From positions 238,012-302,011 of the forward strand of contig JAVYVJ010000002.1 in the NCBI GenBank assembly GCA_038727705.1: a DNA stretch of 64,000 bases, in the 5' to 3' direction. This document shows, piece by piece, positions 18,878 to 20,023 of the stretch (position 1 is the stretch's first letter; each line of letters opens with the position of its first letter). The notes under the pieces were generated by a model that ran no database searches, was not told the origin of the DNA, and was given only the letters and a program-made list of their open reading frames with translations. This DNA is from Zestosphaera sp. Its GTDB lineage: Archaea; Thermoproteota; Thermoprotei_A; Sulfolobales; NBVN01. The position numbers were made by a program, and so were the translations under genes.

Positions 18878-19594
18878 CTAATTCGGTGGGAGGCCCTTCA
18901 AATATCTGACACTGCCGTTGTTAAACCCGACTATTACCACGTCGGCCTCGCTGAGGAATAACCCTGTCTCTATGACTCCTGTTAAACCCTTCACAAGCCT
19001 CTCAAATCCCTCAAGACTCATATCGGGCGGTGGGAAAGAGTCGAGGATAATTCCCCCAACGTCACTCACCACTGGACCTCTTTTACCAGTGCCTTTCCTG
19101 ACGCTCACCATCAAACCCAGTCTTGCAAGGTCTTTGAGAACCATTCTTAGTGAGCCGGGAACAACCTCTATGGGTATGGAGCGCCTTACACCTAACCTAT
19201 CAACCACCTTGAATTCGTCGACTACGAAGACCCTCAACTCAGCATGCCTTGCGAGGAGCTTCTCCATGGTTAACGCGGCCCCACCCCCCTTCACCATCCT
19301 CCCCTGCCCGTCAACCTCGTCGGCTGAGTCGAGGTAAAGCTCCAGACTGTCAACAGAGAGGATGTCAAAGACCTTATATCCTAACCTAGTCAGAATCTCC
19401 ACAGTCTCCATAGATGACGCCACCAACTCCTTACCGTCTAGCAAACCTGTGGCGTGCGCCTCCTTGATGAGGAGTTCGGCAGTGCTACCGGTTCCCAAAC
19501 CTATAACCCTTCTACCGTTAAGGAATTTGAGAGCCTCCTTAACTGCCGCCAACCGAGCTCTGTGGAAGTCCTCCACGAAGTGAGCCACCCTCAC
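18878..19594 (-). CDS. rpiA: Ribose 5-phosphate isomerase A
   Basis: 238 residues. Interconverts ribose 5-phosphate and ribulose 5-phosphate, linking sugar metabolism to nucleotide and amino-acid synthesis. Family signatures: IGLGTGSTAELLIKE (about residues 32-46), SADEVDGQGRMVKGGGAAL with the catalytic Asp and Glu (about 92-110), and KRGPVVSDVGG near 170. The frame starts with GTG, but the exact start is uncertain: the TATA-like run (19596-19606) is only a few bases upstream, so initiation may be at a later GTG. Monocistronic or convergent with the flavoprotein gene; the sRNA lies divergently upstream. Confidence 0.93.
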   Translation of the reverse strand: MRVAHFVEDFHRARLAAVKEALKFLNGRRVIGLGTGSTAELLIKEAHATGLLDGKELVASSMETVEILTRLGYKVFDILSVDSLELYLDSADEVDGQGRMVKGGGAALTMEKLLARHAELRVFVVDEFKVVDRLGVRRSIPIEVVPGSLRMVLKDLARLGLMVSVRKGTGKRGPVVSDVGGIILDSFPPPDMSLEGFERLVKGLTGVIETGLFLSEADVVIVGFNNGSVRYLKGLPPN

Positions 19595-19644
19595 AATATA
19601 TATATATGAACACAGTTAAGAATAAATCAGAGTGCAGTACCAGT

Positions 19645-19703
19645 GGGCTATGATGATGTCCTCGATCACTGAGAGATGATGTGAGTAATCCGCACTGAGA
19701 ATC
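19645..19703 (+). ncRNA. C/D box sRNA (2'-O-methylation guide)
   Basis: Boxes in order on the + strand: C ATGATGA (19650-19656), D' CTGA (19669-19672), C' ATGATGT (19676-19682), D CTGA (19695-19698). Both guide segments, between C and D' and between C' and D, are exactly 12 bases, with a 3-base D'-C' spacer, which is the strict archaeal spacing. By the N+5 rule the D guide (GAGTAATCCGCA) would methylate the G at the fifth position of UGCGGAUUACUC, and the D' guide (TGTCCTCGATCA) the C at the fifth position of UGAUCGAGGACA. I could not assign rRNA or tRNA targets. Transcript ends are approximate. Confidence 0.88.
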
Positions 19704-19789: not shown

Positions 19790-20023
19790 TTAACTCCTGG
19801 AGGACTTGCCCACCTCCACTATCTCCTTACACTTCAGTTGCTTTAGAAATCCGTCCAGTTCGTTAATCGGTATTTTTATTGTGTAGAGATATCTCTTGGT
19901 CCTAGCTTTAACTTTAGCTATGTTTTCCTTCTCTTTCTTAACTATCCTACATACCTCAGCCCTTGACGATATCTCTATGAACTTGTTCTTATCGTATACT
20001 TCAACAGGCACGTTACCACCCAT
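19790..20023 (-). CDS. rpl38e: Ribosomal protein eL38
   Basis: 77 residues. The order VEVYDKNKFIEISSRA, a basic KVKARTKRYLYTIKI strand pair (about residues 38-55) and a final hydrophobic helix-strand ending in IVEV matches archaeal/eukaryotic L38e of the large subunit, a protein found in Thermoproteota but missing from many other archaea. A TATTTAAG element on the minus strand about 23 bases before the ATG suggests a leaderless transcript from its own promoter, although the NTP phosphatase gene lies just upstream. Confidence 0.85.
   Translation of the reverse strand: MGGNVPVEVYDKNKFIEISSRAEVCRIVKKEKENIAKVKARTKRYLYTIKIPINELDGFLKQLKCKEIVEVGKSSRS

Follow-up and report, generated by a model that had tools for sequence, protein, structure and literature searches.

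We asked whether a short C/D box motif between rpiA and rpl38e is a real sRNA gene, and at which RNAs its two guides would be aimed. The window, that is, the whole 64 kb stretch of DNA that was analysed, comes from a genome in the same family as a Zestosphaera genome (G005); Zestosphaera tikiterensis (L145) is listed under Desulfurococcaceae in NCBI. A preliminary description of the window had placed here a C/D box sRNA with perfect C, D', C' and D boxes, two guides of exactly 12 bases, and no assigned target. Read directly from the sequence, the gene spans 19650-19698 on the plus strand, and its parts follow one another 5' to 3' as box C, a 12-base guide, box D', the 3-base linker GAG, box C', another 12-base guide and box D. 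The features of the locus are as follows.

18878-19594, minus strand: rpiA, neighbour (Pfam PF06026, E 1.9e-44)
19618-19627, plus strand: proposed TATA-like promoter element, AAGAATAAAT, aligned with AAG[GA]ATTAATA of genus members
19650-19656, plus strand: box C, ATGATGA; TGATGA is invariant in 20 of 20 aligned orthologues, 18 of which had been fetched with a pattern requiring TGATGA
19657-19668, plus strand: guide before D', TGTCCTCGATCA, 12 bases; pairs with own 16S 1265-1274
19669-19672, plus strand: box D', CTGA (sequence and orthologue alignment)
19676-19682, plus strand: box C', ATGATGT, one base off RTGATGA, with T for A at the last base (sequence and orthologue alignment)
19683-19694, plus strand: guide before D, GAGTAATCCGCA, 12 bases; proposed diverged member of the guide lineage for 16S 1188-1198, with no firm target
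19695-19698, plus strand: box D, CTGA (sequence and orthologue alignment)
19790-20023, minus strand: rpl38e, neighbour (Pfam PF01781, E 2.3e-6, 28 bits against a cut-off of 27)

The sRNA thus lies on the strand opposite to both neighbours. With the boxes read, the motif unique, the neighbours identified by Pfam and the element conserved in orthologues, the initial placement of a C/D box sRNA between rpiA and rpl38e holds, as do the guide lengths and the two guide complements written out at that time. The word "perfect" is right for C, D' and D and has to be withdrawn for C'.

The C/D arrangement occurs a single time in the window, on both strands and under both a strict and a loose rule, and not at all in 100 simulated first-order Markov windows. 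A looser scan, which allowed two mismatches in all and required an exact box D, again found only this motif in the window, and none in 10 Markov windows. Pairwise identity among five genus members averages 0.86 across the span from box C to box D; for the 50 bases on each side, the average is 0.41 (before the sRNA) and 0.23 (after it). A BLAST search with a 211-base query covered 60 genomes, among them the window's own; in each of the four other genus members, the match was limited to the sRNA (query 61-116 at most). Conservation of the boxes in close relatives, which the preliminary description had named as a test of the gene, is seen in 20 aligned orthologues and the five genus members. The sRNA also sits between rpiA and rpl38e in G001, G003 and G004. 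Nineteen orthologues were aligned with the window, and in 12 of them the fetched stretch, which varies in length, includes rpiA or rpl38e. A pattern scan of contigs returned 23 stretches, of which 19 were archaeal and carried the sRNA and four were bacterial chance matches. In the order, 121 of 214 genomes gave a match to a profile built from 20 orthologues, a count that includes weak chance matches (e.g., G035, G054, G077, G083, and G192). Upstream of the sRNA, AAG[GA]ATTAATA stands at the aligned place in all four other genus members. The TATA-like element of the window lies about 25 bases from the start of the sRNA, as fits an archaeal promoter.

Folding did not set the element apart: 148 of 200 shuffles were at least as stable as the sRNA, and no terminal stem was evident. 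The box sequences are able to form the core of a kink-turn. The lack of an evident stem would suit a gene that has decayed or fallen silent, or a motif arisen by chance, but we consider such an origin highly improbable, as conservation is confined to the sRNA, the simulated windows hold no motif, and a guide is kept in register with 16S rRNA. Judged from sequence, the element very probably encodes a genuine small RNA that guides 16S methylation.

No Rfam family matched above its gathering score at the sRNA. Sub-threshold alignments over 19646-19700 included the archaeal C/D families sR47 (RF01131), sR1 (RF01152), and sR44 (RF01129); these run over the whole element through the boxes, not the guides, and score 20-21 bits against cut-offs of 40-45. 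None of the 20 orthologue-bearing stretches reaches any Rfam cut-off. In box order, spacing, two 12-base guides, and own-16S pairing over the N+5 base, the element resembles the C/D sRNAs of Crenarchaeota/Thermoproteota as described in the part of PMC4644070 covered here, which reports 489 C/D box sRNAs from seven archaea. Neither the 16S site nor the sRNA is named in the main-text literature covered here, and they may already be in print. On these sequence comparisons, the element belongs to a well-known sRNA class, as a new member that is conserved across the order and has a predicted target for its first guide. An orthologue is present in Sulfolobus acidocaldarius, and it may figure in the supplementary tables of PMC4644070.

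The first guide, TGTCCTCGATCA, forms ten unbroken Watson-Crick pairs with 16S rRNA 1265-1274 of its own genome, and its target, originally reported as unassigned, can now be named: 10 of the 12 bases of the complement given in the preliminary description are present there. C1268, the partner of the guide base five positions upstream of D', is the predicted 2'-O-methylation site; it aligns to E. coli U1308, and we take it to lie in 16S helix 42. A run of ten anywhere in 16S or 23S arises by chance for 1.0% of guide shuffles and 1.4% of 12-mers from the window, so the ten-pair match alone is only suggestive. We assign the D' guide to 16S because the match is conserved across genomes.

For this comparison, we used 21 genomes with both the sRNA and a 16S sequence at hand. 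G035, G054, and G026 (16S but no clear sRNA) were dropped beforehand, as was G003, with its bacterial-looking rRNA locus; 16S fragments lacking helix 42 were unusable (e.g., G010, G017, G022, G025, G019, G126, and G039). The ten-base core pairs fully in 14 genomes, with one G.U in five, and with one mismatch (plus a G.U) in two, G213 and G045; it is therefore paired without mismatch in 19 of 21. One base of the core varies. Where the 16S base is A, the guide has U in six of six genomes; where it is G, the guide has C (10 genomes) or U (five), and no genome has an unpairable choice. When 16S targets were swapped among genomes, the own score was reached in 153 of 20000 shuffles, and covariation at the variable base gave a Fisher p of 0.012; both tests overstate independence because the genomes are related, and the 16S A arises in two families only. 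We regard the agreement between guide and 16S at this base as support for the predicted target, not proof. Methylation at 16S C1268 (E. coli 1308) is a prediction for many genomes of the order, and it can be tested.

Two observations on the rRNA loci were made along the way. The locus of G003 (L083, L140) is probably on a contaminant contig. The 16S matches in G005, G004, G053, and G054 (L080, L082, L081, and L079) are 2.2-2.4 kb long, with a 672-base insertion in the G005 16S, and probably contain 16S introns.

The second guide, GAGTAATCCGCA, had no acceptable target in its own 16S, 23S, 5S, SRP RNA, or tRNAs (tRNA loci on both strands and 45 mature tRNAs parsed by Aragorn). The search of rRNA and tRNA genes for both complements, suggested at the outset as a check, therefore placed the D' guide and left the D guide without an acceptable match; for the D guide, the earlier suggestion of an unusual target or an orphan may hold. 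PMC4644070, in the part covered here, sets the bar for a target at nine or more consecutive Watson-Crick pairs with rRNA that take in the N+5 base; the D' guide has ten such pairs, and the D guide has no such run in its own 16S or 23S. Only one guide of the element reaches nine pairs, a difference from the sRNAs described there. An orphan second guide is not unusual, because 163 of the 489 sRNAs, about a third, are given there as lacking significant rRNA complementarity, and 28% of Pyrobaculum guides are without a target, as reported in the covered part of PMC7994747.

Several candidate targets of the D guide were set aside. The best 23S match, at local position 1897 (TGCGGATCACCC, two mismatches), was abandoned: in G001, G002, and G004 the bases that would pair are altered, yet the guide is the same. 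A recurrent 23S match at position 24, with two mismatches, two G.U, and four consecutive pairs, was too weak. The pattern GNGGATTACTY has nine matches in the own genome, one of them the sRNA, against six for the reversed control, which is no excess; the full 11-base form, GCGGATTACTC, is found among these matches in the sRNA only. A sequence about 13 bases downstream of tRNA-Thr(GGT), TGCGGATTAAAC (L040), makes nine pairs with the D guide, probably by chance.

Comparison of second guides across genomes gave a possible origin for GAGTAATCCGCA. Among 79 classified genomes, 63 carry a guide that we call class B, 10 a diverged class A, three an intact class A, and one another guide; two were left unclassified by the script. 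Class B guides (GGCAGGGTTT and similar) are unrelated to the D guide of the window. They fit 16S at the equivalent of 1245-1257, about 20 bases from the site of the first guide: on the own 16S of 14 genomes, this site is the best of a 190-base region in nine, second-best in two (G053 and G224), and outside the top two in three (G038, G142, and G059). We also found 9-11-pair matches of the class B D guide to the 16S and 23S insertions of Zestosphaera (G005) and to the 16S of G004, and set them aside because both genomes carry class A and class B fits exon 16S.

The intact class A guide, TGTAGCCCGCGA, is found in family f6 (G045, G166, and G167 by script, G165 by eye). It makes 11 pairs with 16S 1188-1198; the own 16S was tested for G045 only, where another nearby site scores 19 against 20 for 1188-1198. 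Diverged class A guides belong to the family of the window: CTAGTCCGC, TTAGTCCGC, GTAGTGTCCGC (Zestosphaera), and GTAATCCGC (G012, G019, and the window genus). Among 1490 sites in the 16S of the window's genome, these guides rank site 1188 second (G012/G019), third (G013), ninth (window and G004), 10th (G020), 18th (G003), and 79th (Zestosphaera). G015 was rejected as a class A member: its guide ranks site 1188 at 201, and G006 has a class B sRNA at rpl38e plus a separate G015-like copy elsewhere. This separate C/D-like sRNA of G006 and G015, with D guide GTGTAGTCCCGCT, lies away from rpiA/rpl38e (L282 around 2140-2205, L283 around 1995-2060).

From these comparisons we infer that the D guide descends from a guide for 16S 1188-1198 and has since diverged. 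At 1188 of its own 16S, positions 2-10 of the guide give seven Watson-Crick pairs and one G.U, with an A-C mismatch at the remaining position. The low rank of site 1188 for the Zestosphaera guide and the nearly equal second site in G045 weigh against this descent. Two further findings count against it: (i) eight sites of the own 16S pair better with the guide; and (ii) its nine-base core, GTAATCCGC, is shared with G012 and G019 of the same family, and a core kept between two genera is unexpected for a dead guide. Within the window genus, the D guide is identical in three members, the window included, with one change in G004 and more in G003. It is most likely a relict, weak, or retargeted.

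Taken as a whole, the locus is probably an ordinary C/D sRNA, with a D' guide for methylation of C1268 and a D guide diverged from one for 1188-1198. The gene would be transcribed, probably from its own promoter, into a C/D box sRNA some 50-60 bases long. In archaeal C/D sRNPs, L7Ae, Nop5, and fibrillarin bind the RNA at its C/D and C'/D' motifs, and assembly of such an RNP is expected here. The D' guide would pair with 16S 1265-1274 and direct 2'-O-methylation of C1268. The D guide, as a descendant of the 1188-1198 guide, would now pair there only imperfectly, and may add a weak second contact that does not ensure methylation, or be moving to another target or to none.

The rival explanations turn on what the D guide does. 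Both guides might act on 16S, with the D guide still pairing with 1189-1197, where the strong D' pairing at a distance of 70 bases would anchor it, and methylating G1192 (E. coli 1232). The site is the same one, within 100 bases, as that of the exact guides of family f6; the D-guide core is kept between the window genus and G012/G019; and double guides within 100 bases are common in the part of PMC4644070 covered here. The imperfect pairing at 1188 nevertheless falls short of the nine consecutive pairs used there, and with eight other sites pairing better, we find this somewhat unlikely. The guide might instead have been retargeted to an mRNA, RNase P RNA, a tRNA precursor, or a tRNA outside those found. 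That seven genomes of two genera share the core and yet lack a good rRNA target for it would agree with this, as would the nine-pair match downstream of tRNA-Thr(GGT), but that trailer match may be chance and the GNGGATTACTY count shows no excess over its control; we hold retargeting of this kind to be unlikely. A broader scheme, in which one guide stays fixed on 16S helix 42 and its partner is exchanged or re-aimed, here off the ribosome to another RNA, we judge improbable; if true, the sRNP would link 16S with an RNA from outside the ribosome.

Under the preferred reading of an ordinary C/D sRNA with a diverged D guide, the locus would offer a tractable case of two guides of one sRNA evolving at different speeds: the first guide stays, and the second is exchanged, drifts, or is swapped in place with the first. 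The swap is seen at L155 (7616-7657, minus strand) and L243, where the guides stand in reverse order, class B before D' and the helix-42 guide before D, as if the sRNA had been circularly permuted.
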